Position numbers and translations under genes: made by a program. A stretch of 64,000 bases of DNA, taken from Halanaerobium hydrogeniformans. Its GTDB lineage: Bacteria; Bacillota; Halanaerobiia; Halanaerobiales; Halanaerobiaceae. This document shows positions 50,824 to 64,000 of the stretch, one piece after another. Under the pieces are notes generated by a model, which made no database searches, was not told where the DNA came from, and was given only the letters and a program-made list of their open reading frames with translations. The DNA lies in contig NC_014654.1 in the NCBI RefSeq assembly GCF_000166415.1, positions 434,001 through 498,000 of the forward strand, read 5' to 3'. The first letter of the stretch is position 1; the number at the start of each line of letters is the position of its first letter.

Positions 50824-51654
50824 ATGGCAAAAACAGCACTGCTGGCAGGCTGGGGAGATATGCCCCGCCTCTGGGCCGAAAGAGCAGAAGCCCGGGGAGA
50901 AGATTTTATAGTAATCAAAATAGCAGAAGAAATAACCGCTCAGTTCTCTGATCTGGATTGCAAGGAGCAGACAGTTAACCTGGCAGATTTTAATCTGCTG
51001 CTCGAGCTTTTAAAAAAAGAAGGGATAAGCCGGTTGATCCTTTTGGGCAAGATCCATAAAGAAAAGCTTTTTAAAGATTTTGAAGCTGATCTTAAGCTGA
51101 AAATGCTTTTAGCTTCACTACCCAACTTCAATGATGATACCATTTTAAAAGCTCTGGTTGATCAGTTTATAGAATTGGGGATAGATGTCTTAGCTCAGCA
51201 CTATTTGCTGGAAGATATTTTAGCGAAAAGAGGTATTTTAGCAGGTGATCCTTCAGCCAAGCTGAAAAAAGAACTGGCTTATGGTTTTAAAACAGCCTAT
51301 AATCTGGGTCGTTTTGATATCGGGCAAACCGCTCTGGTTAAAGATGGAGCTGTTATGGCCCTTGAGGCAGTTGAAGGTACAGATGAGGCGATCAAAAGGG
51401 CTGCTAAATTTGGTGGTCCTGGTTTTGTGATGGCCAAATGCAGTAAAAAGGAACAGGATTTCCGCTTTGATATTCCCACAGTTGGCCTTAATACTTTAGA
51501 ACTGCTTTTAGAACATCAGGCAGCAGGGTTGGTAATCGAAGCCGAAAAAACTTTTATGCTTGATCAGGCAGAATTCTGCCGGAGAGCAGAAAAAGAAGGG
51601 CTGGTTGTTGCAGCTGCTTCTTTTGATAAAGGAGAAATGATCTTAAATTGTTAA
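50824..51654 (+). CDS. lpxI: UDP-2,3-diacylglucosamine pyrophosphatase LpxI
   Basis: A 276-residue enzyme that makes lipid X from UDP-diacylglucosamine. It is of the LpxI (DUF1009) type, not LpxH. N-terminal domain starts TALLAGWGDMPRLWAERA; the centre has KIHKEKLFKDF and the C-terminal domain the ALEAVEGTDEAIKRA block, GPGFVMAKCSKKEQDFRFDIPTVG with the catalytic Asp, and GLVIEAEKTFMLD. Sits between lpxA and lpxB, overlapping lpxB by 7 nt, as in other LpxI users. Confidence 0.93.
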   Translation: MAKTALLAGWGDMPRLWAERAEARGEDFIVIKIAEEITAQFSDLDCKEQTVNLADFNLLLELLKKEGISRLILLGKIHKEKLFKDFEADLKLKMLLASLPNFNDDTILKALVDQFIELGIDVLAQHYLLEDILAKRGILAGDPSAKLKKELAYGFKTAYNLGRFDIGQTALVKDGAVMALEAVEGTDEAIKRAAKFGGPGFVMAKCSKKEQDFRFDIPTVGLNTLELLLEHQAAGLVIEAEKTFMLDQAEFCRRAEKEGLVVAAASFDKGEMILNC

Positions 51655-52805
51655 ATATAATGGTTTCTGCAGGAGAAGTGTCTGGAGACATGCATGCTGC
51701 TGCAGTTATAAAAGAATTAAAAGAAAAAACTAAAGCTTTAGATATAGAGGTTAATGTGTTCGGGATGGGCTCAACTGCTTTAAAAAAAGCAGGGGCCGAG
51801 ATAATCATCGATCCCACAGAGATCAGTACCATCGGTTATCTGGAAGCCTTTAAAAATCTCAGAACCCATTTTAAGCATTTAAAAAAGCTGAAAGAACTTT
51901 TAAAAGAGAGAAAACCAGACCTGGTTTTTCTGGTTGATTATTCTGCTTTTAATATGAAGCTGGCTAAAGCCTGTGCTAAAGAGGGCATTAAGGCTGTTAA
52001 CTATTTTCCACCAACCGCCTGGATCTATAATAAGGGGCGGGCCAAAAAACTGGCTGATTATGGAACCCATATTGCAGCTGTTTTACCGATGGAAAGGGAT
52101 GTTTATCGGCAAGCAGGGGCAGAGGTTACATTTGTTGGTCATCCACTCTTAGATCTGGTAAAGGTCGAGGGTGACAAAAACTCTATTAAAGCAGATTTTA
52201 AGATCAGAAAAAAGAAAAAGGTAATCGGGCTTTTTCCCGGCAGCCGCAGGGGAGAGATCAAGGCTCTTTTACCGGAGATCTTAAAAGCAGCCCAGAGATT
52301 GGATGAAAATTTCGATCACCTTAGTTTTGTTCTGGCTGCAGCAGAAGGGGTAAAAGATGAATTTTTAAAAGAATTTACTGATGATTTTAAGCTAGACCTA
52401 AAAATAGTGCGTGATAATAACTACAGGCTGATGGAAGCAGCCGAATTTTTAATTACTGCCTCAGGTACAACGACTTTAGAGGCAGCTATTTTAACTACAC
52501 CCCATATAATAGTCTATAAATCCAGTTTAAGCACCTATCTTCTGGCCAAATATTTTTTCAAGATAGAATTTATCGGTAAACCTAATATCATCGCCGGTAA
52601 GCAAATACTGCCAGAACTTTTGCAGCAGGAATGTACGGCAGAAAATATCTATGTTCAGGCAGAAGAGTGGCTTAATTATAAGGGGCTTTTGGTTGAAGCA
52701 GAAAGAAAACTCCGGGAGGTAAAAGAAAAACTCGGAGGTGGAGGTGCGGTTAAAAAGACAGCAGAATTATTGTTAGCAGAGGGAGGGCTCAAAGGAAATG
52801 GATAA
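51648..52805 (+). CDS. lpxB: Lipid-A-disaccharide synthase
   Basis: A 385-residue GT-B glycosyltransferase (GT19) that joins lipid X with UDP-diacylglucosamine. TTG 51648 lies in the lpxI end. Signatures: IMVSAGEVSGDMHAAAVI, VDYSAFNMKLAK, PPTAWIYNKGRAKKLADY, FVGHPLLD, LFPGSRRGEIKALLP, and the sugar-nucleotide site TASGTTTLEAAI. Ends by overlapping lptC. Following enzymes LpxK and KdtA are not in the window. Confidence 0.95.
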   Translation: MLNIMVSAGEVSGDMHAAAVIKELKEKTKALDIEVNVFGMGSTALKKAGAEIIIDPTEISTIGYLEAFKNLRTHFKHLKKLKELLKERKPDLVFLVDYSAFNMKLAKACAKEGIKAVNYFPPTAWIYNKGRAKKLADYGTHIAAVLPMERDVYRQAGAEVTFVGHPLLDLVKVEGDKNSIKADFKIRKKKKVIGLFPGSRRGEIKALLPEILKAAQRLDENFDHLSFVLAAAEGVKDEFLKEFTDDFKLDLKIVRDNNYRLMEAAEFLITASGTTTLEAAILTTPHIIVYKSSLSTYLLAKYFFKIEFIGKPNIIAGKQILPELLQQECTAENIYVQAEEWLNYKGLLVEAERKLREVKEKLGGGGAVKKTAELLLAEGGLKGNG

Positions 52806-53376
52806 AAAACATATTTTTCTGGGGCTCTTTATTTTTATGATAATAGTAATTTCTCTCTTTTTAACCCTTGATGATCCCCCTTTTATAGAACCGAATGATC
52901 TAAATGAGGTCGAAGAGGGGGCAGAAGAAGAATTAGAAGATGTCAGGTTCAGCATCATCAACAGAAATCAAAACCATGAACTGAAGTTGATCAGTGAGCG
53001 GGTAGATAACTACCAGTCTGAAAATAGGATGGAGCTATACCCGGTTGAAATCGAGGTCTATGACCGTGAAGATGGAGAATTACTCTATACCTTAAAGGGA
53101 GATTTCGGTCAGTATTTTACCCGGGAAGACTATATTGAACTCAGGGGTAATGTGGAAATAGAAAGTGACCGCTATTTTATCGAGGCTGATGAACTTGACT
53201 ACTTTTTAAATGAAGATTTTTTAGAGGGAAGAGATTCTGTGCAGATCAGAGGGGCTGATTTCACTTCTACAGCTAAAAGATTTGATTCTGATTTAAATTT
53301 AAGGAATTTAAGACTCTATGCCGAAGAAAATCAAACAAGGGCAGGAGTATATTTTGAGGAGCAGAATGATGAATAA
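52798..53376 (+). CDS. lptC: LptC-like lipopolysaccharide export bridge protein
   Basis: A 192-residue protein: an N-terminal membrane helix (about 5-23), then a single jellyroll of beta-strands with the LptC pattern (YTLKGDFGQYFTREDYIELRGNVEIES, IEADELDYFLNEDFLEG). It links the LptB-permease complex to LptA in the periplasm. It overlaps lpxB by 8 nt and lptA by 8 nt, so translation is coupled. The assignment rests on position and on the D-Y-I-E-L-R-G-N-V strand pattern; sequence identity of LptC is low in general. Confidence 0.85.
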   Translation: MDKKHIFLGLFIFMIIVISLFLTLDDPPFIEPNDLNEVEEGAEEELEDVRFSIINRNQNHELKLISERVDNYQSENRMELYPVEIEVYDREDGELLYTLKGDFGQYFTREDYIELRGNVEIESDRYFIEADELDYFLNEDFLEGRDSVQIRGADFTSTAKRFDSDLNLRNLRLYAEENQTRAGVYFEEQNDE

Positions 53377-53995
53377 AAAATTTATTACAATTTTATTAAT
53401 TTTAATAATGATTTTTACGGTCGGAAGTGTAAGTGCAGCCAGGCAGTTAACCGGTGATGAGCTAGATTTTTTAGATAGTGAGGCCGGTCAGATCATCGAG
53501 GCCCGCAGAGATGTGGAGCTGCTGTATGATGAGCTGAGAATTACTGCTGAAGATGAGGGTATTTACCACCGCTACAGTGGAGAAATAGAGTTCAGATATA
53601 ATGTAGAACTTTTTTATCAGGACTATCAGGGTAGAGCCCATGAATTAACCGGTAATATAGAATCAGAGGTTTTTTATCTAGAACAGGATGCTGTTTTAGA
53701 AGCTGCTGACAGCTATCTTGAGGCTGATAGGATAGAAATCTATCAGGCTGAAGAAAGGATAGAAGCTTTTGGCAATGCCTATCTAGAATATGAGGATTTC
53801 TGGGCAGAGGCAGATGAGATCATCAGTTATCTGGACCGGGAAGTAACCCATTTAAGTGGTAATGTCCGGGGAGAAAGAAATGGAGAAAGATTTTCAGCTA
53901 ATTCTGCAGAGATAAATCAGGCTGAAAATGAGATAAGACTGAGGGGACAGGCTAAACTGAGTCTACCCGAGGGGGAAGCAAACGATGACAATTAA
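53369..53995 (+). CDS. lptA: LptA/OstA-like periplasmic LPS carrier
   Basis: A 208-residue protein. Start ATG 53369, 7 nt after GAGGAG (ATG 53366 also possible; a longer frame reaches 53318). Signal peptide 1-24 (SVSA before A), then an OstA beta-jellyroll with repeats of RAHELTGNIESEVFYL, ADRIEIYQAEERIEAFGN and VTHLSGNVRGERNGERF. It forms the bridge that shields LPS as it crosses the periplasm. Acidic, as expected of a halophile. No lptD for the outer-membrane end is in the window. Confidence 0.85.
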   Translation: MNKKFITILLILIMIFTVGSVSAARQLTGDELDFLDSEAGQIIEARRDVELLYDELRITAEDEGIYHRYSGEIEFRYNVELFYQDYQGRAHELTGNIESEVFYLEQDAVLEAADSYLEADRIEIYQAEERIEAFGNAYLEYEDFWAEADEIISYLDREVTHLSGNVRGERNGERFSANSAEINQAENEIRLRGQAKLSLPEGEANDDN

Positions 53996-54704
53996 GGCAG
54001 AAGGCCTGGTTAAAGTATATAATAAACTGAGGGTTGTAGATGAGGTTGACATTAAGGTAGAAAGGGGCCAGATAGTGGGTCTTTTAGGTCCCAATGGGGC
54101 CGGGAAAACCACCACCTTTTATATGATCCTCGGTTTGATCAACCCCGATGGGGGTAAGATCTTTTTTGATGAACACGATATTTCTGAGCTACCCGTTTTT
54201 AAAAGGGCAAGGCTTGGAGTAGGCTATTTACCTCAGGAGGCCTCTATTTTTCGCAAGCTGACGGTTGCCGATAACCTGAGAGCTATTTTAGAACACAAAG
54301 ATTACAGTAAAGAGAAAATAGAACAGATTACTACAGATCTTTTAGAAGAATTTCATATAGAGGGGCTTAGAGACCGCAAGGGCTTTCAGCTTTCCGGGGG
54401 AGAAAGACGTCGGGTGGAGATCGCCCGTTCTCTGGCAGCAGATCCAGATTTTATCCTGCTTGATGAACCCTTTGCCGGGGTAGACCCGATCGCTGTTAAC
54501 GATATTCAGGATATTATCCGCTATCTTAAAAAAAGAGGGCTGGGTGTATTGATCACAGATCACAGTGTTAGGGAAACCCTTTCTATCACAGATAGAGCCT
54601 ATATCATGCATGAAGGTAAGATCCTCTTTTCCGGAACCTCTGAGGAGATCTCAGAAAATGAGCTGGCCCGCAAATTCTATTTAGGAGATAAATTTAAAAT
54701 TTAG
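53985..54704 (+). CDS. lptB: LPS export ABC transporter ATPase LptB
   Basis: A 239-residue ABC ATPase powering LPS extraction. Walker A GPNGAGKTT (about 34-42), Q-loop GYLPQEASIFR, signature LSGGERRRVEIARS, Walker B FILLDEPFAGVDPIAV, switch His in ITDHSVRETL. The PQEASIFRKLTV and FAGVDPIAV blocks are LptB-specific. It overlaps lptA by 11 nt and is followed by its permease. Confidence 0.96.
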   Translation: MTIKAEGLVKVYNKLRVVDEVDIKVERGQIVGLLGPNGAGKTTTFYMILGLINPDGGKIFFDEHDISELPVFKRARLGVGYLPQEASIFRKLTVADNLRAILEHKDYSKEKIEQITTDLLEEFHIEGLRDRKGFQLSGGERRRVEIARSLAADPDFILLDEPFAGVDPIAVNDIQDIIRYLKKRGLGVLITDHSVRETLSITDRAYIMHEGKILFSGTSEEISENELARKFYLGDKFKI

Positions 54705-54719
54705 TGAGGTGCATCTTTT

Positions 54720-55820
54720 TTGAAAACAGTTGATAAATACATCTACAAAGAATTGATAGCACCTTTTTTATTCGGGGTGGCAGCTTTTACCGGTATCTTT
54801 ATCGGTACAGATCTGATCTTTGAGGTGACAGAATATTATATAGAATGGGGAGTAGATGTTTTAACCCTGCTCAGGCTTTTCTTTTTAAGTTTGCCGGAGA
54901 TAATTATTTTGACCTTCCCGATGGCAGCACTTTTAGGAACCATTATGGCCTATAACAGGCTGTCCGGTGATAGTGAGATAACAGCCATGCGGGCGGGAGG
55001 AATCAGTATTATGGCTATAGTCTTACCTGCCCTGATTATGGGACTTGTAACAAGTGGGATTACAATCGCTATCACAGAATTTATTGTACCTGGTGCAAAT
55101 TATCAGGCAGAACAGATAATCCATCAATTTAAACACGGGGAGCGAAGACCGGATACCCAGTATGACCTCTTTTTAACCCCTTTAGACAGCAGGACGAGCA
55201 GACCTGACTATATGCTTTATGCAAAAAGTTTTAATGCCGAAAACGGCAGGATGACAGATGTGGTATTACAGAGCTTTGAAGATGGTAGACCCAGAAGCGT
55301 ACTTGAAGCAGAGGAAGCCCTCTGGCTGAGAGATGGCTGGAGCTTTTTTAATGGCACAGTCTATTTTCTGGACAGAGAGGACCGTTCACCATCTTTAGAG
55401 TTCAGCCAGTACCGTTCTCGGGAGGATATCCATTCTCCAGCCCAGGCTGGTAAGCTTGGTAAGGATATAGATGAGATGAATATCAGAGAATTAAATGAAC
55501 ACATCGCACTTTTAGAACAGCAGGGCAGGGCAGCATATGAAGAGCGGGTTGAGTTCCACCACCGCTTTTCGGTTCCGATGGCAAGCTTTATCTTTGCCCT
55601 CCTGGCAGCTCCACTGGGGATCAAACCACAGCGTTCTGCCGGTTCGGCAACAGGTTTTGGGATCAGTATCATAATCATCTTTATCTATTATGTGCTGATG
55701 ACCATCGGAGATGCTTTAGGCAGTCAGGGTACGATAGAACCATGGCTTGGAGCCTGGCTGCAGAATATAATAATCTTTTTAGTTGGTTCAGGACTTTTAT
55801 ATAAAACGGCAAAACAATAA
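54720..55820 (+). CDS. LptF/LptG-family LPS export permease
   Basis: A 366-residue permease of the YjgP/YjgQ family. TTG 54720. Three N-terminal helices (about 11-31, 45-77, 95-125), a periplasmic beta-jellyroll (about 130-260, with YMLYAKSFNAENGRMTDV and EEALWLRDGWSFFNG), and three C-terminal helices starting FHHRFSVPMASFIFALLAAPLGIKPQ, the hallmark. Only one permease gene is present, so the transporter would be a homodimer or use a second copy elsewhere. It follows lptB by 15 nt. Confidence 0.92.
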   Translation: MKTVDKYIYKELIAPFLFGVAAFTGIFIGTDLIFEVTEYYIEWGVDVLTLLRLFFLSLPEIIILTFPMAALLGTIMAYNRLSGDSEITAMRAGGISIMAIVLPALIMGLVTSGITIAITEFIVPGANYQAEQIIHQFKHGERRPDTQYDLFLTPLDSRTSRPDYMLYAKSFNAENGRMTDVVLQSFEDGRPRSVLEAEEALWLRDGWSFFNGTVYFLDREDRSPSLEFSQYRSREDIHSPAQAGKLGKDIDEMNIRELNEHIALLEQQGRAAYEERVEFHHRFSVPMASFIFALLAAPLGIKPQRSAGSATGFGISIIIIFIYYVLMTIGDALGSQGTIEPWLGAWLQNIIIFLVGSGLLYKTAKQ

Positions 55821-55844
55821 TTTAAATTTTAGGAGGTGGAGATT

Positions 55845-57116
55845 ATTAACGCTTTTGTAATTATCTTTTCAGTAGTATTTTTAAGTGGTTTAATAGCTTA
55901 TCTTGGTGACAAGATAGGGATGAAGATGGGTAAAAAACGAGTCTCTTTATTTGGTCTCCGCCCCCGTTATTCTTCTGTAATAATTACCATTATTACCGGT
56001 GTTTTAATCGCCGTACTTTCAATAACAGTATTATTAGGGGTTTACTCTGAGTTGAGAAATGCCCTCTTTAATATTAATGAGGTATTAACTAGATTAGAAT
56101 ATCTAAATGAACAATTAGAAGAAAGGGACCAGGAGCTGGCAACTAGAGATCAGATGCTGGCCGAAAGAGATGAAGAATTAAGTGATTTACAGCAGACAAT
56201 AGAGGCCAGGGAAGAAGAAATAACAGACAGGGAAGCTGAGATCTTAGATAAAGAAAGAGAAATTGCAGCCAGAGATCAGGAGATTGCAGAAACAGAACAG
56301 GAACTGGCTGATTTAACAGAAAACAGAGATCAACTTTTAGCCCGGGTAGATGAGTTAAGTGCCCAGCGGGATGATTTAGAAGCTCAGATAGATGATCTGG
56401 ATGAAGAAATTGCTGCCCTAGAGGCTGACTATGATCAGTTAAGGGATCTGGCAAACCAGCTCCAGGCAGGAGTTATCTATTACATGGGTGAAGATATGGT
56501 CTACCAGAGAGGTGAAGTAATCTATAGTGATGTTATAGAGGGTGGACGCAGTGAACAGGAAACAATTTCTGAACTGAATCGCTATCTACAGTCAGCAAAT
56601 GAGGTTGCCAAAGAAAGAGAAATAGAGGTCAATGAAGAAACAGGTATGGCCTTAAGACTGCAGACAGAAGATATCTTAAATGCCGCCCGCGTAATCTATA
56701 ATATGGATCCAGGCTCCAAGGTTATAGTAAGTCTTGTTGCCAGGGTAAATGTTCCCAAAAATGACTGGCTTTATGCAAACTTCCAGCTTAATCAGGATTT
56801 TATAGTCTTTGAAGAAGGTGAACTGATAAATTCCAGGGTCATAGATTCAGACCAGAGCAGTGAAGAAATCGAGGCAGAATTAGAAACCCTGCTTAGATCT
56901 GTCAACCAGAGAGCGATCAACAAGGGTCTTTTACCTGATGATTCCGGTCAGGTGGGCAGCATCAACTTCAGCATGTTCTATGATATTGTAAATCAGGTTA
57001 GAGATTCGAGTGGTAGGATTGAACTTAAAGTATATGCAGCTTCAGATATCTGGCGTGAAGATAGACTGACAAATAATCTGGAGTTCGAATTAGAGGAGAT
57101 AAATGACAATGACTGA
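55845..57116 (+). CDS. DUF3084-type membrane coiled-coil protein
   Basis: About 423 residues. Two membrane helices (about 2-20 and 45-65) frame a short loop with KRVSLFGLRPRYSSVI, then a coiled coil of 130 residues (ERDEELSDLQQ, REAEILDKEREIAARDQ type heptads) and a C-terminal domain matching DUF3084 (YYMGEDMVYQRGEVIY, VIDSDQSSEEIEAELE, VNQRAINKGLLPDDSGQVG). Function unknown; often near outer-membrane or cell-division genes. The start is unclear: GTG 55836 overlaps AGGAGG, while ATT 55845 is 8 nt after it, exactly as in the ywlE-like gene; I use ATT 55845. Confidence 0.8.
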   Translation: MNAFVIIFSVVFLSGLIAYLGDKIGMKMGKKRVSLFGLRPRYSSVIITIITGVLIAVLSITVLLGVYSELRNALFNINEVLTRLEYLNEQLEERDQELATRDQMLAERDEELSDLQQTIEAREEEITDREAEILDKEREIAARDQEIAETEQELADLTENRDQLLARVDELSAQRDDLEAQIDDLDEEIAALEADYDQLRDLANQLQAGVIYYMGEDMVYQRGEVIYSDVIEGGRSEQETISELNRYLQSANEVAKEREIEVNEETGMALRLQTEDILNAARVIYNMDPGSKVIVSLVARVNVPKNDWLYANFQLNQDFIVFEEGELINSRVIDSDQSSEEIEAELETLLRSVNQRAINKGLLPDDSGQVGSINFSMFYDIVNQVRDSSGRIELKVYAASDIWREDRLTNNLEFELEEINDND

Positions 57117-57528
57117 GGAACTATTATCTTTGGATCCGGGTAGAAATAAAATTGGAACCGCTGTTATAAGCAGAGATAAAGAGGAAAGAGAAAAGACGAT
57201 AGTAAGCCTAACTGAATTTGAAGATCATTTAAATGAGATATTTGATAAATATCAAATAAACGAAATCATCGTCGGTAATGGTACAGGAGCAGAAAAAATT
57301 ATAAAAAAGATTGAAAAATTAAAAATAAATAAAAAAATAACGGTGGTTGATGAAAAATTCAGCACAGAAGAAGCTCAGGCCCGCTATCTAAGGGAAAAGC
57401 CGATGTCTAGATATGAAAAACTTTTGAGGAAATTCATCTCATGGAAGGTAAAAAAGCCCTTAGATGACTATGCAGCCCTGATTATTGCCGAAAAATACCT
57501 TGAAAAACTTGACAAAGAGCTTAAATAA
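57103..57528 (+). CDS. RuvX/YqgF-like RNase H-fold protein
   Basis: A 141-residue protein overlapping the DUF3084 gene by 14 nt. It resembles the YqgF/RuvX RNase H-like family: LLSLDPGRNKIGTAVISRD (first catalytic Asp), INEIIVGNGTGAEKI, VVDEKFSTEEAQARY (Glu) and KPLDDYAALIIAEKYL (Asp). It lacks the standard RuvX G-T-R-R-I-G form, so it is a divergent relative, as seen in diderm Firmicutes envelope clusters. A nuclease role in DNA or pre-rRNA is possible; its position after DUF3084 is unexplained. Confidence 0.7.
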   Translation: MTMTEELLSLDPGRNKIGTAVISRDKEEREKTIVSLTEFEDHLNEIFDKYQINEIIVGNGTGAEKIIKKIEKLKINKKITVVDEKFSTEEAQARYLREKPMSRYEKLLRKFISWKVKKPLDDYAALIIAEKYLEKLDKELK

Positions 57529-57654
57529 CCTTAAAATAGACAGTAGGATAGCCAGAATTTGAAGTTTTTGTGAAATATCTTTGAATTAATTCTTCGATTT
57601 TGGATTATCTGTGTTTATTAACTTATGCTTATAATCTCGAAGCTAAAATGCGGT
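57529..57654 (+). promoter_or_regulatory. Intergenic region with the porin promoter
   Basis: No gene seen. A TATAAT box at 57630-57635 would start transcription near 57642, in line with the start of the conserved leader. A clear -35 is missing at normal spacing; a TG dinucleotide four bases upstream may help. Confidence 0.45.
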
Positions 57655-57838
57655 GGAAAGGAGGTGCCCCCCGAAGCTGCGGAGTGGTAGAGATATAAGA
57701 GTTCTAAAACTTATACTTAAATCGATTGGACAGATGAAGAGGAAACTAGGCAACTCGCTCGGATGTCCTCTGAGATTATATAGGTCACTTAGAACTTATA
57801 TAAATTAGATCGAAAACAATCAAGGGGGATAAATAATA
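57655..57838 (+). ncRNA. Conserved structured leader RNA, copy 1 (upstream of SLH porin)
   Basis: This 184-nt leader is nearly the same as 62181-62356 before the second porin gene. Pairings: P1 AGTTCTAA 57700-57707 with TTAGAACT 57789-57796; P2 57709-57715 with 57779-57785, 7 bp with changes that keep pairing between copies (U-G to U-A, U-A to G-U); and two competing inner pairings, GGACA 57728-57732 with TGTCC 57764-57768, or AGAGGA 57738-57743 with TCCTCT 57766-57771. A C-tract (57667-57672) can pair with the GGGGG ribosome site (57824-57828). No known riboswitch recognised. Confidence 0.8.
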
Positions 57839-59647
57839 ATGAGAAAACTTACAATAACAATAGCTTTAATGCTAGTCGTTGCATTAGCTGTTCCAGCATT
57901 AGGTGCAGGACATGGTTCATTTTCTGACGTACCTAGTGATCACTGGGCATATGATGCTATCAATTCACTTGTCGCTGCTGGTGTAGTAGAAGGATATCCA
58001 GATGGCGAATACAAAGGTCAAGAATCAATGACACGTTACGAAATGGCTGTTATGGTTAGCCGTGCATTAGATAACATCATGGCTGAACAAGAAGCAATGG
58101 CTGAAGGTCTAACTGAAGGTCAAGCTGATGACGTAACTGCTATCGTTGAGTCTTTAATGGAAAGAAACATGCCTGAAAGTCTTACAGATCAACAGGCAGA
58201 AGAAGTAGCAGATATCGTAGAAGCTCTTACTTTTGAATTAAGAGCAGAATTAGAAGTACTTGGTGCAGATGTAGACGCTCTGTATGAAGACTTTGAAGCT
58301 TTAGAAGCTAAAGTAGACGCTATGGACGTACCAGAAGATAACATTGAATTTGGTGTAACAGTAGAAACCATCTTTGAGGTTGCAGATTATGGTGACAATG
58401 TAAAAGAAGCTGGTCGCTTATGGGCTGATGGAGATGCATTAGATCTTGATTTAGCTGAGGATTTTGGTGATTGGGAAGATGCAAATGTAGATGAAGCAGA
58501 CCTTCCTTCTGAGAAGAGATTCTGGCAGGAAATTGGATTCGATGTATATGGTAACGTTGGCGACGCTGACTTCCACTTAGAAGTAGATACTTTAGTTAAT
58601 GTATTTACCGAAGAAAAATCTGCTTTTGGATATGCAGAAGATGATGAAAGTAACTTCGCAATGGATACAGCTCTTTTAACTGTTGACTATGCTGATACCA
58701 CTTTCTTAGTTGGAGATCATGTAGATGCTAGTATAGCTCGCTACTTCGTTGATGAAGAAGATCTACAGGGGTTAGCAGTTGTTAAGAACTATCTAGATAT
58801 TGACTGGACATTCTTAGTAGCCGGTTACGGTGAAGGTGACGAAGAGGTAGGAGATACTGGTATCATATTAAATGATATCGATATTTATGGTGTAACTGCT
58901 TCAACCGATATGGACTTCGGTACAGTTACAGGTAGAGCTTATCAGGCTAGACTTCCTGAAGATCAGTTAAATGTACTTGGTTTAGCTGTTTCTAATGTAG
59001 CTTTAACAGATGTTGTAACAGTTGGTGGAGAAGTTGCATTTACTGATAGTACAGTTGGATTTAATGAAGAAAGTGACTTCCTATTTGCTGTAGACGGAGA
59101 GTTCGTAGTTAGTGATGAATTAACTCTTACTGCTATGTTCGAAACTGTTGGTGAAGACTTCAATAACTGGCAAGGCGACTTAGAAGAAGATAATAATTAT
59201 GATCTCTTCAATGTAGCTGCGGCATTTGACTTAGATGAAAATAATACAGTTAGTGGATCATATACATGGGTAGATGCTAATCAAGACGAAGATAAGCACA
59301 CTGTTGAAGTTATGTTAGATAATGTTTATGGTGATTTCACAAACTATGCATCTGTAGAATATACAATGGATGATGATTTTGCAGAAGATCGTGATGTTAG
59401 AGTAATCGAACTTGGTACTGAGTATGCATTAGATGATGTAACTACTCTTGGTGCAGCTTGGGTTAACAAAGACATAGACGATGCTGGTACAACTGAAATT
59501 AACTATAACTATCTGAAAGGTCATATGAACAGAGAACTTTCAGAAAATACCGTTTGGAATGTAGAAGCTAAATGGATCGATGGAGAATATGAGGGTGATG
59601 ATGCAGATTCAAGTGCTTTAACTACTTCTCTAACAGTAAGCTTCTAA
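57839..59647 (+). CDS. SLH-domain outer-membrane porin (OmpM-like), copy 1
   Basis: A 602-residue major envelope protein candidate. Signal peptide 1-23, one SLH domain (about 26-75: FSDVPSDHWAYDAINSLVAAG, EGYPDGEYKGQESMTRYEMAVMVSRAL), a helical coiled-coil linker (about 80-165), and a large acidic beta-barrel (about 170-602) that ends in the strand LTTSLTVSF with C-terminal Phe, the BamA signal. The design equals OmpM of Negativicutes, in which SLH binds the wall and the barrel is a pore. ATG 57839 follows GGGGGAT. Acidic surface suits a halophile. Codon use is unlike its neighbours (more GTA, GAC, GGT), as expected of a highly expressed gene. Confidence 0.9.
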   Translation: MRKLTITIALMLVVALAVPALGAGHGSFSDVPSDHWAYDAINSLVAAGVVEGYPDGEYKGQESMTRYEMAVMVSRALDNIMAEQEAMAEGLTEGQADDVTAIVESLMERNMPESLTDQQAEEVADIVEALTFELRAELEVLGADVDALYEDFEALEAKVDAMDVPEDNIEFGVTVETIFEVADYGDNVKEAGRLWADGDALDLDLAEDFGDWEDANVDEADLPSEKRFWQEIGFDVYGNVGDADFHLEVDTLVNVFTEEKSAFGYAEDDESNFAMDTALLTVDYADTTFLVGDHVDASIARYFVDEEDLQGLAVVKNYLDIDWTFLVAGYGEGDEEVGDTGIILNDIDIYGVTASTDMDFGTVTGRAYQARLPEDQLNVLGLAVSNVALTDVVTVGGEVAFTDSTVGFNEESDFLFAVDGEFVVSDELTLTAMFETVGEDFNNWQGDLEEDNNYDLFNVAAAFDLDENNTVSGSYTWVDANQDEDKHTVEVMLDNVYGDFTNYASVEYTMDDDFAEDRDVRVIELGTEYALDDVTTLGAAWVNKDIDDAGTTEINYNYLKGHMNRELSENTVWNVEAKWIDGEYEGDDADSSALTTSLTVSF

Positions 59648-59744: not shown

Positions 59745-60485
59745 TTGAAAACAAAAATATCTTTATTGGTTTTGGTTTTAGTAATGGTTGCTTTATTGTC
59801 GGGCAGTGCAGCTGCTTCTGATTGGCAGCTTATCGGTGGTTTTAATATTACTAATGTTACTTTAGATACTTATAATGAGACGATTCGTGATTTGAATAAT
59901 ATTGCAGAAACAGGTGTTTTAGGAGGAAATCAGTTATTCACCCCATCTAATGTGGAAAAGATGGATGAAATTGATAGGGTTCCATTAATTTATTTAGGTG
60001 TTAAAAGACCGATTAATGATAACTGGGATTTAAATATTCGATATGAATATATTTTTGGTGAAGTAGAGCAGAGTTATGATGCTGAGGAAGTTAATAATAG
60101 TGGCATTCAAGGACCACATGAAGGCTCAATAGCTGTGGATCTTCATGGATTAACTTTTTTAGCAGATTATAATATTGATGAAAACTGGTATCTTAGTGGG
60201 GGGATTGGTTATCATTGGGGTACTAAAACCACTGATTTAGAAGGTGCTGTTTACCAGACATTAGATGCTTCTCCTGACAGCAAATTAGAGGCAGGGAAAA
60301 ATGATTATGATCTCAGCAATGGTATCAGTGTTAGAGCTGGGGTTGGTTATGTGAGAGATTTTGCTGATAACTGGGATATAAATGCTAAAATCGATTACCT
60401 ATATATTGAGCTTGAGGATGAACAGCAGGGTAATATCTACAGTCGCGGCTTTTCTTATACTATCGGTTTAGGATACGATTTTTAA
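59745..60485 (+). CDS. Small outer-membrane beta-barrel protein
   Basis: A 246-residue exported protein, TTG 59745 after GAGGAGG. Signal peptide 1-24 (SAAAS before DW), then alternating strands with aromatic ends (WDLNIRYEYIFGEV, LTFLADYNIDENWYLSGGIGYHWG, VRAGVGYVRDFADNWDINAKIDYLYIEL) and a terminal YTIGLGYDF ending in Phe. This is the pattern of an eight-stranded OmpW/OmpA-like barrel. No SLH domain. Located between two SLH porins, with its own terminator. Specific role unknown; a small channel or a structural protein is possible. Confidence 0.8.
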   Translation: MKTKISLLVLVLVMVALLSGSAAASDWQLIGGFNITNVTLDTYNETIRDLNNIAETGVLGGNQLFTPSNVEKMDEIDRVPLIYLGVKRPINDNWDLNIRYEYIFGEVEQSYDAEEVNNSGIQGPHEGSIAVDLHGLTFLADYNIDENWYLSGGIGYHWGTKTTDLEGAVYQTLDASPDSKLEAGKNDYDLSNGISVRAGVGYVRDFADNWDINAKIDYLYIELEDEQQGNIYSRGFSYTIGLGYDF

Positions 60486-60578: not shown

Positions 60579-62075
60579 TGTCAATAACTTTTGAAAATGT
60601 CACTTTTTTATACCAATTTTATCTTGAGAAAATGTCACCCCCAAAGGGGAGATATGTTTGGGGTTTAAACCAAACATATCAGGCAATTTGAGTGAGAAAT
60701 ATTTTTTCCAGCATTTTCAGTATATCGTGATCACTGTCTTCAAAAGTTACTTTTTGCCAGGCTTGATGTCCATATTTATAATAATGCCCATCGTCTGGTC
60801 TGTATTTGTTATTAGAATTAGTTTTACTCTTTTTAACTTTTGATTTTTTATGTTCAGTCCAATGGATAACATCATAAATTTTTTCACCATATTGTGCTTT
60901 CACACCGAATTTAGGACTAAGAAGAACTTTGATTTTCGATTTTGGATAGACTGACATACTATTAGTAACGACCTTGAAGCGCTGATTATAAAAAGAAAAA
61001 GTTAAACCATTATCAAGTATTCTTTCTTCCTTAACGCAAAGTATATTATCTAGACAAATTTTTTCAGGAAGAGTTCTAAAAGCGCAAATGGTGTCTTCAG
61101 GTGCTACAGCAAATTTTTCATTAAATTTGATTAAGTAGCCAGCAAAAAACTCATTAGCCTGCTCGATAGTGGATATACCTGCTATCTTAAATTCAACAGG
61201 CAGTCTGCTTTGAAGAGTATCCCATAATCTTTCAATACGTCCTTTAGCTTGCGGTGAGCGTGCAGGAATCATAGTAATTCCAAGTTCTTTCATGGCTCTT
61301 CCAAACTGAGTATCTTTAACAGTTTTACCAGCAAGTTGTTCTTCAATTGTAAGTTTGTCTGCCTTAGGTGAACGGAAGATAGTATGTCTATCAGTATAAA
61401 TACTGACGGGTATACCATAATTTAAGACCACAGATCTTAAAGTTTCAAAATATCCCTGTCGGCACTCGTTTTTAGTCATGTAAAGGCCCATTATTTTACC
61501 GGTGGAATCATCTATGGCACCATGAATGTCATATTTTTCTCCCGTACCAAACCAATCGTGTGGACTGGCATCAATTTGGATTAATTGGCCTTCTTTTGCT
61601 TTGCGTTTACGACGGTTATGAACTTTCTTTTTGCGATGCTTTTTGGGACTTTTGACACCATTGCTGCTTAAAATAGTATGAAGTGCGTTGTAACTAATGG
61701 TGATGTTTTCATGTTTTTCTAGTAATTCTTGAAAATGCAGGAAGTTAGCACCTTGATACAAGTCGGATTTTTTCAGGGCAACAATTTTACTGATGAAATC
61801 CTCAGAAAAAGCATGAATAGGTTTACGACCTTTATTTTTATGAACTAAAAATGATGGACCTTCTTTTTTCACACCTTTCTTCAAACGAATTATTTGGCGA
61901 ACACTAAGGTCTAAAGCCTGTGCAGCTTCTGAGTTGGTCATACTTTTATCAATGACCATAGAAATGACATGATACCTATTCAATTGTGTTTGGGACATAA
62001 GATAATATTTTTCTCCTCTCATAGTGACATTTTATCAAGATAATTTCACTATGACATTATCACAAGATAATCACA
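60579..62075 (-). mobile_element. ISNCY/IS1202-like insertion sequence
   Basis: A complete 1497-bp element. Its ends are inverted: TGTCAATAAC at 60579 against TGTGATTATC (reverse strand from 62075), and a sub-terminal repeat TATCTTGAGAAAATGTCAC near 60622-60640 against TATCTTGATAAAATGTCAC on the reverse strand near 62026-62044. It is bracketed by a perfect 17-bp direct repeat. One transposase gene on the minus strand. It sits between the small barrel gene's terminator and the second porin leader, and looks recent. Confidence 0.9.
60679..62022 (-). CDS. DDE transposase of the ISNCY/IS1202-like group
   Basis: A 447-residue intact transposase. N-terminal helix-turn-helix (MTNSEAAQALDLSVRQIIRLKKG), a second HTH-like region, a basic linker (KKHRKKKVHNRRKRKAK), and the integrase core: QIDASPHDWFG (first Asp), SIYTDRHTIFRS (second Asp), ARSPQAKGRIERLWDTLQ (Glu). 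The C-terminal domain has YNQRFKVV and a Lys-rich stretch. Size and the long target duplication match IS1202-type elements. Start is ATG at 62022 (reverse); ATG at 61998 is an alternative. Confidence 0.88.
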   Translation of the reverse strand: MRGEKYYLMSQTQLNRYHVISMVIDKSMTNSEAAQALDLSVRQIIRLKKGVKKEGPSFLVHKNKGRKPIHAFSEDFISKIVALKKSDLYQGANFLHFQELLEKHENITISYNALHTILSSNGVKSPKKHRKKKVHNRRKRKAKEGQLIQIDASPHDWFGTGEKYDIHGAIDDSTGKIMGLYMTKNECRQGYFETLRSVVLNYGIPVSIYTDRHTIFRSPKADKLTIEEQLAGKTVKDTQFGRAMKELGITMIPARSPQAKGRIERLWDTLQSRLPVEFKIAGISTIEQANEFFAGYLIKFNEKFAVAPEDTICAFRTLPEKICLDNILCVKEERILDNGLTFSFYNQRFKVVTNSMSVYPKSKIKVLLSPKFGVKAQYGEKIYDVIHWTEHKKSKVKKSKTNSNNKYRPDDGHYYKYGHQAWQKVTFEDSDHDILKMLEKIFLTQIA

Positions 62076-62092: not shown

Positions 62093-62180
62093 TTGCCAAA
62101 TATTTTAAACGGTGATATAATTTCGAATCATGGAGTTAAATTTTTAAAACTGGATTATATTCTCTTGGCTAGTTTACGTA
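62093..62180 (+). promoter_or_regulatory. Upstream region of the second porin leader
   Basis: No gene seen. A TATATT box at 62156-62161 with a weak upstream region may start the leader transcript. The insertion sequence ends 80 nt before it. Confidence 0.35.
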
Positions 62181-62356
62181 GGAAAGGAGGTGCCCCCGAT
62201 ACGTCTGCTGAGAGTTATAGTAGTTCTAAAACTTAGATTTGAATATTGGACAGATGAAGAGGAAACTAGGTTACTCGCTCTGATGTCCTCTGAGATTATT
62301 TAAGTATTTTAGAACTTAAATAGATCAATTAGAAAAATCAAGGGGGATAAATAATA
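62181..62356 (+). ncRNA. Conserved structured leader RNA, copy 2 (upstream of second SLH porin)
   Basis: Aligns over its whole length with 57655-57838. P1: AGTTCTAA 62222-62229 with TTAGAACT 62309-62316. P2: ACTTAGA 62231-62237 with TTTAAGT 62299-62305. Inner alternatives: GGACA 62248-62252 with TGTCC 62284-62288, or AGAGGA with TCCTCT. C-tract 62193-62197 against GGGGG 62342-62346. Differences fall in loops or keep pairing. The block GGAAAGGAGGTGCCCCC and the core from GGACAGATG to GAGATTAT are nearly invariant. Confidence 0.8.
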
Positions 62357-64000
62357 ATGAAAAAATTAATAATAACAATCGCTTTAATCCTGGTAGTTGC
62401 ATTGGCGGTTCCAGCATTTGCTTCTTTTTCTGATGTACCTGCAAATCACTGGGCATATGATGCAATTAACTCACTTGTTGCTGCTGGTGTAATTGAAGGT
62501 TACCCAGATGGAGAGTACAAAGGTCAGCAGTCAATGACACGTTATGAAATGGCTGTAATGGTTAGTCGTGCTTTAGACAATATTATTGCAGAACAGGAAG
62601 CAATGGCTGAAGGTCTAACTGAAGGTCAGGCAGCAGATGTAACAGCAATAGTTGAGTCTTTAATGGCAAGAAATATGGCTGATAGTTTAACAGAACAACA
62701 GGCTTCAGAAGTTGCTGATATCGTAGAAGCTCTTACATTCGAATTAAGAGCAGAGTTAAGAGTTCTTGGTGCAGACCTGGATGCTCTTTTTGAAGATGTA
62801 GAGGTTTTAGCGGCTAAAGTAGATGCTATGGATGTTCCAGAAGATAACATCGAATTTGCAGTAACAGTAAAAACTATCTTCGAAGTTGCAGACTATGGTG
62901 ACAATGTAGGAGCAGCTATGAGATTATGGGCTGATGGAGATGCTTTAGATTTAGATCTTCCAACATGGGATCCAGCAGCTTCATTAGAAGATGCATTAGA
63001 TGCAACAAATAATGATTTATCTGAAGAAAGTATTGCAAATGCACTTGGAATAACTCCTGAAGAAGTTAATTTAGACTGGGAAGATGCAGATGACCTTCCT
63101 TCTGAAAAGAGATTCTGGCAGGAAATCGGTTTCGATGTCTATGGTAATGTTGGAGATGCTAACTTCCATCTAGAAATGGATACCTTAGTTAATGTCTTTA
63201 CTGCAGAGAAAAGTGCTTTTGGTTATACAGAAAATGATGATAATAATTTTGTGATGGATACCGCACTTTTAACTGTTGAATATGCTGATACCACAATCAA
63301 ATTAGGTGACTTATTGGATTATGGTATAGCTAGATATTTTGTAGATGAAGAAGATCTTCAGGGTTTAGTAGTTCATAAAGATTATTTGGATATAGACTGG
63401 ATATTCTTAGTTGCTGGTTATGGTGATGATAGTGAGATAGATCTTTATGGAGTAACAGCAGCAAAAGACATGGATTTCGGTACTGTTACCGGTAGAGCTT
63501 ATCAGGCTCGATTAGCTGATGACCAACTAAATGTACTTGGTTTAGCGGTTTCTGATATTGCTTTAACAGATACTGTAGTACTTGGTGGAGAAGTTGCATT
63601 TACCGATAGTACAGATGCTCCATTTAACAATGATAGTGACTTCCTGTTTGCTGTAGATGGTAAATTTATGGCTAGTGATGATCTAACAGTAACAGCTATG
63701 TTCGAAATGGTTGGCGAAGACTTCTCTTTCTGGCAGGATGATCTAGAAACTGATCAAGAATACTACAAAGTTGAAGTTGGAGCTGTATTTGCTTTAGATG
63801 CAAATAATAGTATCAGTGGTTCCTACAAATTTGTAGATGCAGATGTACAGCCTGAAGACGAAATGACAGCAAAAGTAAGATTAGATAACCTCTATGGTGA
63901 TTTCAATAACTATGCTTCAATCGAGTATGTTATGAATGATGGTTTTACTGCAGATAGAGATGTTAGAGTAATCGAACTTGGTACAGAATATGCCTGGGAT
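62357..64000 (+). CDS. SLH-domain outer-membrane porin (OmpM-like), copy 2, 3' end outside window
   Basis: Open from ATG 62357 to the window edge: 548 codons without a stop. Signal peptide 1-22, SLH domain (about 23-72: FSDVPANHWAYDAINSLV, EGYPDGEYKGQQSMTRYEMAV), coiled-coil linker, and barrel strands up to the edge (RVIELGTEYAWD). A close paralogue of the 57839 gene: the first 165 residues and strands such as EKRFWQEIGFDVYGNVGDA are nearly the same, while an approximately 30-residue insertion (about 196-230) and a loop deletion distinguish the barrels. Start after GGGGGAT, as in copy 1. The last roughly 55 residues should lie beyond the edge. Confidence 0.9.
   Translation, partial: MKKLIITIALILVVALAVPAFASFSDVPANHWAYDAINSLVAAGVIEGYPDGEYKGQQSMTRYEMAVMVSRALDNIIAEQEAMAEGLTEGQAADVTAIVESLMARNMADSLTEQQASEVADIVEALTFELRAELRVLGADLDALFEDVEVLAAKVDAMDVPEDNIEFAVTVKTIFEVADYGDNVGAAMRLWADGDALDLDLPTWDPAASLEDALDATNNDLSEESIANALGITPEEVNLDWEDADDLPSEKRFWQEIGFDVYGNVGDANFHLEMDTLVNVFTAEKSAFGYTENDDNNFVMDTALLTVEYADTTIKLGDLLDYGIARYFVDEEDLQGLVVHKDYLDIDWIFLVAGYGDDSEIDLYGVTAAKDMDFGTVTGRAYQARLADDQLNVLGLAVSDIALTDTVVLGGEVAFTDSTDAPFNNDSDFLFAVDGKFMASDDLTVTAMFEMVGEDFSFWQDDLETDQEYYKVEVGAVFALDANNSISGSYKFVDADVQPEDEMTAKVRLDNLYGDFNNYASIEYVMNDGFTADRDVRVIELGTEYAWD

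Follow-up and report, generated by a model that had tools for sequence, protein, structure and literature searches.

The window analysed here, a 64-kb stretch of the complete 2.61-Mb genome of Halanaerobium hydrogeniformans, carries towards its end two genes for SLH-domain outer-membrane porins of the OmpM/SlpA type, both recovered with the Pfam SLH model: the first at 57839-59647 (+), and the second at 62357-64000 (+), from where it extends beyond the window edge. The N-terminus of the porin is similar to those of Veillonella OmpM (8bys/8bym) and Deinococcus SlpA (7zgx). To our knowledge, the control of porin levels in diderm Bacillota and Deinococcota is unstudied, and the literature searched yielded no paper on slpA leaders of Thermus or Deinococcus or on the 5' UTRs of OmpM. 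In these bacteria porins of the OmpM/SlpA type are described as both tethering and perforating the outer membrane, the E. coli-type systems being absent (PMC10628300). Upstream of the first porin gene lies an LPS-transport-like cluster (51648-57528, +; lpxB-, lptC-, lptA-, lptB- and lptF/G-like genes, followed by genes for a coiled-coil protein and a RuvX-like protein), and behind it is a gene for a small outer-membrane beta-barrel protein (OMP_b-brl; 59745-60485, +) that has no leader of the kind described below. A transposase-like gene with rve and HTH domains (60679-62022, -) separates the two leader-porin units, with the second leader beginning shortly past it.

The two porin genes are preceded by paralogous leaders with 82% identity over their matched part. 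In the first, the segment GAAAGGAGGTG (57656-57666) is followed by six C (57667-57672), and the leader ends in CAAGGGGGATAAATAATAATG, with a run of five G (57824-57828) ahead of the ATG at 57839. In the second, the same segment (62182-62192) is followed by five C (62193-62197), with the G-run at 62342-62346 and the ATG at 62357. Thus, the C-tract and the GGGGG ribosome site of the original prediction are indeed present in both leaders, and minimum-energy folding pairs the two tracts in each of them; beyond CCCCC/GGGGG the extension of this pairing does not exceed two or three weak pairs. The same prediction had let the leaders begin with AGGAGGTG, which cannot be upheld, since a strand further upstream (57628-57638) covaries with a partner inside the leader and sister species possess consensus promoters (TTGACA-17-TATAAT) upstream of that strand. 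For the same two reasons CTTATAATCTC, considered as a -10 box, was rejected: it covaries as part of this helix, and the consensus promoters of the sister species lie further upstream.

The upstream strand belongs to a hairpin of two elements, P1 and P2. The P1 5' strand, CUUAUAAUCUC in the window (57628-57638, +) and CUUAUCAUCUC in most relatives, pairs with one bulged A to the 3' strand GAGAUAUAAG (57690-57699, +), the partner past the loop being GAGAUGAUA, with covariation across the order. Inside it, the P2 strands UGCGG (57649-57653, +) and CUGCG (57677-57681, +) likewise covary, the variants seen being UGUGG/CCACG, UGCGG/CUGCG and ACGUA/UACGU. The last of these is found in the second leader (ACGUA at 62176-62180, UACGU at 62200-62204), whose P1/P2 domain spans 62150-62220 (+). 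In 13 sequences of the order, 7 of 16 P1/P2 pairs exhibit two-sided change, as against 2.7 in shuffled alignments, and 90% of the cells pair, as against 41-56% when the strands are slid relative to each other. The hairpin is thereby established by covariation. Its loop contains AAAGGAGGUG together with the C-run. Refolding of 52 diverse leaders with the loop held open recovered a P1/P2-like hairpin with a 17-30-nt loop in nearly all of them, although the sequences of the stems differ. Downstream of this domain follow an arm with a second hairpin at its tip, a linker and finally the Shine-Dalgarno sequence. The base of the arm is formed by the helix P3, in which AGUUCUAA (57700-57707, +) is predicted by folding to pair with UUAGAACU (57789-57796, +); both strands are conserved in Halanaerobiales.

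The leader is retained in all 12 Halanaerobium genomes, and R1, a covariance model built from the 5' domain, detected it at E<=1e-9 in 30 of the order's 38 genomes; the sister order(s) and a single genome from another class gave further matches. As this model favours Halanaerobiales and overlooks remote leaders, sequence patterns were used beyond them, with the Shine-Dalgarno side absent from every pattern. A scan of 84,980 species genomes yielded 58 loci, including digester Bacillota. The matches in Deinococcota come from five Trueperaceae and one Deinococcales genome, which are six independent assemblies, all of them metagenome-assembled. A looser pattern requiring only CCC matched 35 of the 398 phylum genomes, with 47 matches as against 2 for the reversed control; one match (L138 in G303), in which the hairpin is missing, was discarded as chance. 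All 34 genuine positives, drawn from 17 families, encode Omp85, as against 102 of the 398 genomes overall (hypergeometric 7e-23). Several Omp85-positive genomes missed by the patterns, when examined via their SLH genes, proved to carry diverged leaders (L206, L207, L208, L211, L212, L216, L217 and L220). Overall, the leader occurs in Halanaerobiia, in some 17 families of Bacillota and in Deinococcota, and the gene behind it encodes a porin, either of the SLH (OmpM/SlpA) type or of another. A typical Halanaerobiales leader with its porin was also encountered in L123, labelled Candidatus Nealsonbacteria, which is probably a mis-binned contig from Halanaerobiales. The 18 pattern matches in viral contigs are all chance, none of them having the GAAA prefix or the hairpin.

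The leader is associated with outer-membrane porins well beyond the SLH proteins of the window. An SLH signature is present in 35 of the 64 dereplicated downstream proteins, and the others are other secreted proteins, several of which match the Pfam Porin_4 or SlpA_C models; every downstream gene checked encodes a secreted protein. For one non-SLH porin (L091) an AlphaFold model with a mean pLDDT of 45 was set aside and the Pfam Porin_4 match used instead. Separately, a curlin-like, amyloid-like repeat protein was noted in L016 (1501-2500, G024), linked to the present set only by a AAAGGGGGATT Shine-Dalgarno in its start region.

The second hairpin, GAG-GAAACUAGGCAA-CUC at 57739-57756 (+) and its counterpart at 62259-62276 (+), has a near-invariant 12-nt loop. 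It reads GAAACNNGGNNA in nearly all of the 64 leaders, an invariance that is in part due to how the leaders were selected, because the search patterns fixed part of the loop. The stem, which was left free in the last search pattern, shows 77 two-sided compensatory cells in 39 sequences, as against 32.1 in shuffles, with GAG/CUC enclosing the loop as the universal inner pairing. The original prediction had instead proposed a two-state core, in which GGACA/TGTCC and AGAGGA/TCCTCT compete for a shared TCC. Comparison lends no support to such a core, AGGA/TCCT included; AGAGGA/TCCTCT is confined to Halanaerobium and is invariant there, and what is seen throughout is the single invariant GAG-GAAACNNGGNNA-CUC hairpin. 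A family that is probably Negativicutes, judging from its protein sequences (f39), has this hairpin directly before ompM, with the 16S-complement/C-tract loop of the 5' domain absent and a GGAGG Shine-Dalgarno in most members, implying that the loop and its long-range pairing are dispensable there. Five such ompM upstream regions of probable Negativicutes (L215, L221, L224, L231 and L232) display only the hairpin, as AGGAAACAUGGAYACU, before a GGAGG or GGGGG Shine-Dalgarno; in several of them AGAA/UUCU flanks the Shine-Dalgarno and could form a small hairpin of its own. The second hairpin is likely to be where a further signal, or a protein, is recognised. Given the GGA motifs in both loops and overlapping the Shine-Dalgarno, CsrA might come to mind as such a partner. 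However, the second GGA of the hairpin is not conserved, and leader-carrying genomes with no CsrA match, namely the complete genome of the window (G000), G033 and G034, exclude it as a general partner, so that a CsrA-controlled leader is very improbable. As regards its genus, nearly all congeners of the Halanaerobium of the window do possess CsrA.

The C-tract lies in the apical loop of the covarying P1/P2 hairpin, and hence its pairing with the G-run would constitute a loop-to-Shine-Dalgarno pseudoknot rather than the simple closure of the whole leader into a loop that had been envisaged in the original prediction. The pairing itself, in contrast to that geometry, is borne out by compensatory changes in homologues. 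The order of Halanaerobium is uninformative in this respect because both the C-run and the G-run are invariant there, and the evidence comes from more distant leaders. In one clade (leaders L068, L073 and L074), CCCCC/GGGGG is replaced by a perfect 9-bp complement, CCUUGAUUG/CAAUCAAGG, with the loop reading CCC-UUGAUUG and the Shine-Dalgarno region CAAUCAAGG-AGGA. Trueperaceae have the compensated pair CCCCUUGA/UCAAGGGG, and in two sister species (G190 and G376, with leaders L206 and L207) AGGUU/AACCU stands against CGGUU/AACCG, amounting to the replacement of an A-U by a C-G pair. Another 20 or so complements, each particular to a lineage, were checked for standard pairs; as these had been picked by eye, a permutation served as the formal test. 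In this permutation the C and G core was fixed at three, and the flanks beside the C-run were scored against those before the G-run. With leaders clustered at 80% (64 leaders) none of 50,000 permutations reached the pairing of the cognate flanks, while at 65% (34 leaders) 46 and at 58% (19 leaders) 297 of 50,000 did so; smaller earlier sets of leaders had given 212/20,000 and 65/20,000 by the same kind of permutation. The length of the C-run also follows that of the G-run (odds ratio 12, Fisher p 4e-4, with relatedness not removed), runs of at least five C being matched by GGGGG and runs of four by either GGGG or GGGGG. Variation of the C-tract without a matching change in the ribosome site is rare among the homologues, the exceptions being L087, where C7 stands against GGAGG and a second copy has no C-run, and L208, which is likewise without one. 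The second copy (L087 7669, -) is leader-like, contains a GGGAAC hairpin and is possibly degenerate or diverged.

The G-run (57824-57828, + and 62342-62346, +) is situated 5-11 nt before the start codon in nearly all leaders, and this ordinary spacing marks it as the true Shine-Dalgarno. The comparative data support the C-tract as its predicted partner, in an arrangement with a Shine-Dalgarno paired to an upstream loop, backed by covariation, as in other sequestering pseudoknots. Since the whole G-run would be inside the helix, we infer that this pairing represses translation, though a constitutively folded, non-switching element would give the same covariation.

The remainder of the apical loop offers a clue as to how the site might be released. 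The 16S rRNA of this genome ends in GGAUCACCUCCUUUCU, whose complement is AGAAAGGAGGUGAUCC; the loop segments GAAAGGAGGUG (57656-57666, +) and 62182-62192 (+) match it over 11 contiguous nucleotides, or 12 with one G-U, which is the longest such match on either strand of the 64 kb. The calculated duplexes with the 16S tail reach -19.9 kcal/mol for the first leader and -20.0 kcal/mol for the second. By comparison, the Shine-Dalgarno sequences of the 57 predicted genes of the 64-kb window have a median of -11.4 and a best value of -15.4 kcal/mol, and those of the porins themselves come to only -10.3 kcal/mol. The match to the 16S tail continues outside the search patterns, with G at -1 in 55 of the 64 leaders and a purine at -2 in 52. 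A leader peptide is not conserved: a start codon follows at 4-14 nt downstream in only 21 of the 64 leaders, and the peptides are unrelated. A leader-peptide attenuator was therefore rejected, no conserved short ORF being found behind the upstream site in these leaders, and so was transcription attenuation, because a terminator is absent from the leader; together these two results favour control at the level of translation. The strength of the complement, its extension into the flanks and the missing peptide provide good grounds for the view that the 30S subunit would bind the loop.

This complement also bears on three other explanations of the leader. In one, it would be a classical riboswitch or protein-binding leader, in which the second hairpin, alone or together with P1/P2, binds a metabolite or a regulatory protein, the pseudoknot acts as expression platform and AAAGGAGGUG is part of the pocket, without pairing to 16S rRNA. 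The nearly invariant loop of the second hairpin across phyla, its persistence as the sole part kept in the probable Negativicutes and the riboswitch proposed by Stav et al. for the related SLH motif (PMC6429828) are all in keeping with this. Yet a binding pocket would not explain why the apical loop is matched to the 16S tail nucleotide by nucleotide, the unsearched flanks included, and a gene context that is always a porin suggests no ligand, making this explanation rather unlikely on balance. In another, a 30S subunit sitting on the upstream complement would shield the porin mRNA, an abundant transcript, from degradation by a 5' exonuclease, as at a STAB-SD, and the pairing of the C-tract would be secondary. 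It would account for a strong Shine-Dalgarno far upstream of the coding sequence without a start codon; however, neither the conserved hairpin loop nor a covarying pseudoknot with the true Shine-Dalgarno is needed for stability alone, and such a role is improbable. Finally, the pseudoknot could be the ON state, placing the strong Shine-Dalgarno of the loop beside the start codon in trans, with the G-run unused as such. Here the far greater strength of the loop site is suggestive, as is the geometry, and only the geometry, by which the 3' ends of the loop site and the G-run come to lie at the same end of the helix. Against it stand the ordinary spacing of the G-run and its reversion to GGAGG in some clades, as is expected of a real Shine-Dalgarno, so that this is still less probable than shielding.

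The interpretation that we favour, with a probability of roughly 60%, is that a conserved RNA element acting in cis controls translation of the major outer-membrane porin, in which the pseudoknot hides the Shine-Dalgarno and the loop acts as a standby site for the 30S subunit. In this arrangement P1/P2 presents an apical loop of 17-30 nt with the 11-12-nt complement of the 16S tail beside the C-run. The C-run and the nucleotides following it pair with the G-run and the nucleotides preceding it, which would hide the weak ribosome site. Both hairpins, the covarying pairing of the loop with the Shine-Dalgarno, the unusual strength of the 16S complement and the tie to porins are established by the sequence comparisons. 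Most likely, the 30S subunit would first dock on the strong loop site, as a standby or relay, and this docking would compete with or displace the pseudoknot and free the true Shine-Dalgarno. Porin synthesis would consequently follow the availability of 30S subunits and whatever binds the second hairpin. The translational switch of the original prediction is a reasonable reading of these sequences, though for regulation, its direction and its signal alike, we infer them. Beyond that prediction, the present analysis adds the complement of the 16S tail, a second hairpin that is invariant and the broad range of carriers of the leader. A more far-reaching proposal, which we regard as possible but doubtful, is that the leader is a ribosome-availability switch conserved across phyla, the loop, as the mimic of a perfect Shine-Dalgarno, capturing the 30S subunit via its full 16S 3' tail in competition with the adjacent anti-Shine-Dalgarno strand and thereby freeing the porin site. 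If true, such a switch would couple the building of the outer membrane to free ribosomes without a protein factor, and would have been inherited or exchanged among outer-membrane Bacillota and Deinococcota.

These features can be set against several known systems. Rfam 15 has no match in the window leader at gathering thresholds or at E<=5, and among 12 diverse relatives the leader is likewise unmatched, the sole match, to a group II intron in L099, being unrelated to it. In SAM-II and preQ1 riboswitches the Shine-Dalgarno forms one strand of a pseudoknot, as it would here; the pairing of the present leader differs in being long-range (about 150 nt, from a hairpin loop to the Shine-Dalgarno), in the additional 16S complement and in having no known ligand. 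STAB-SD elements are short single-stranded sites near the 5' end, and those of the cry mRNAs of Bacillus thuringiensis are reportedly strong Shine-Dalgarno sequences far upstream without a start codon. They resemble the leader in placing a strong Shine-Dalgarno-like sequence at a long distance before the start codon, whereas the site described here is in a structured loop with a covarying link to the true Shine-Dalgarno. The Halanaerobiales were formerly classified in the Clostridia, one of the groups that recur in the following comparison. The SLH motif of Stav et al. (2019; PMC6429828, Fig. 3e) is a candidate cis-regulatory RNA and proposed riboswitch with 80 examples from Synergistaceae, Clostridia and Negativicutes, about 60% of them before SLH genes and the rest before genes of unknown function. 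Both porin genes of the window encode SLH proteins, so that the leader shares the setting upstream of SLH-domain genes. As judged from the text description of the motif, its consensus being in Fig. 3e, the leader quite probably overlaps it; that description includes no Shine-Dalgarno pseudoknot, 16S complement, generalisation to porins or Deinococcota, unlike the leader here (PMC6429828). The present observations would therefore supply a mechanism and a wider range for a probably published, unexplained riboswitch candidate. A precedent is the tisB mRNA of E. coli, which combines a sequestered ribosome-binding site with ribosome standby 100 nt further upstream and with a 5' pseudoknot that translation requires (PMC7708055). 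The leader would have in common with it the hidden ribosome-binding site, a contact of the ribosome some 100-180 nt before that site and the pseudoknot at the 5' side. Their sequences are unrelated. Where tisB uses a single-stranded region and S1, the leader displays its complement of the 16S tail within a hairpin loop, and its pseudoknot directly includes the Shine-Dalgarno of the gene. An anti-Shine-Dalgarno strand beside a complement of the 16S tail, in a leader common to all 34 positive genomes, offers a concrete and testable mechanism, which, if the loop captures the 30S subunit, would constitute an RNA-only link from ribosome supply to envelope synthesis.
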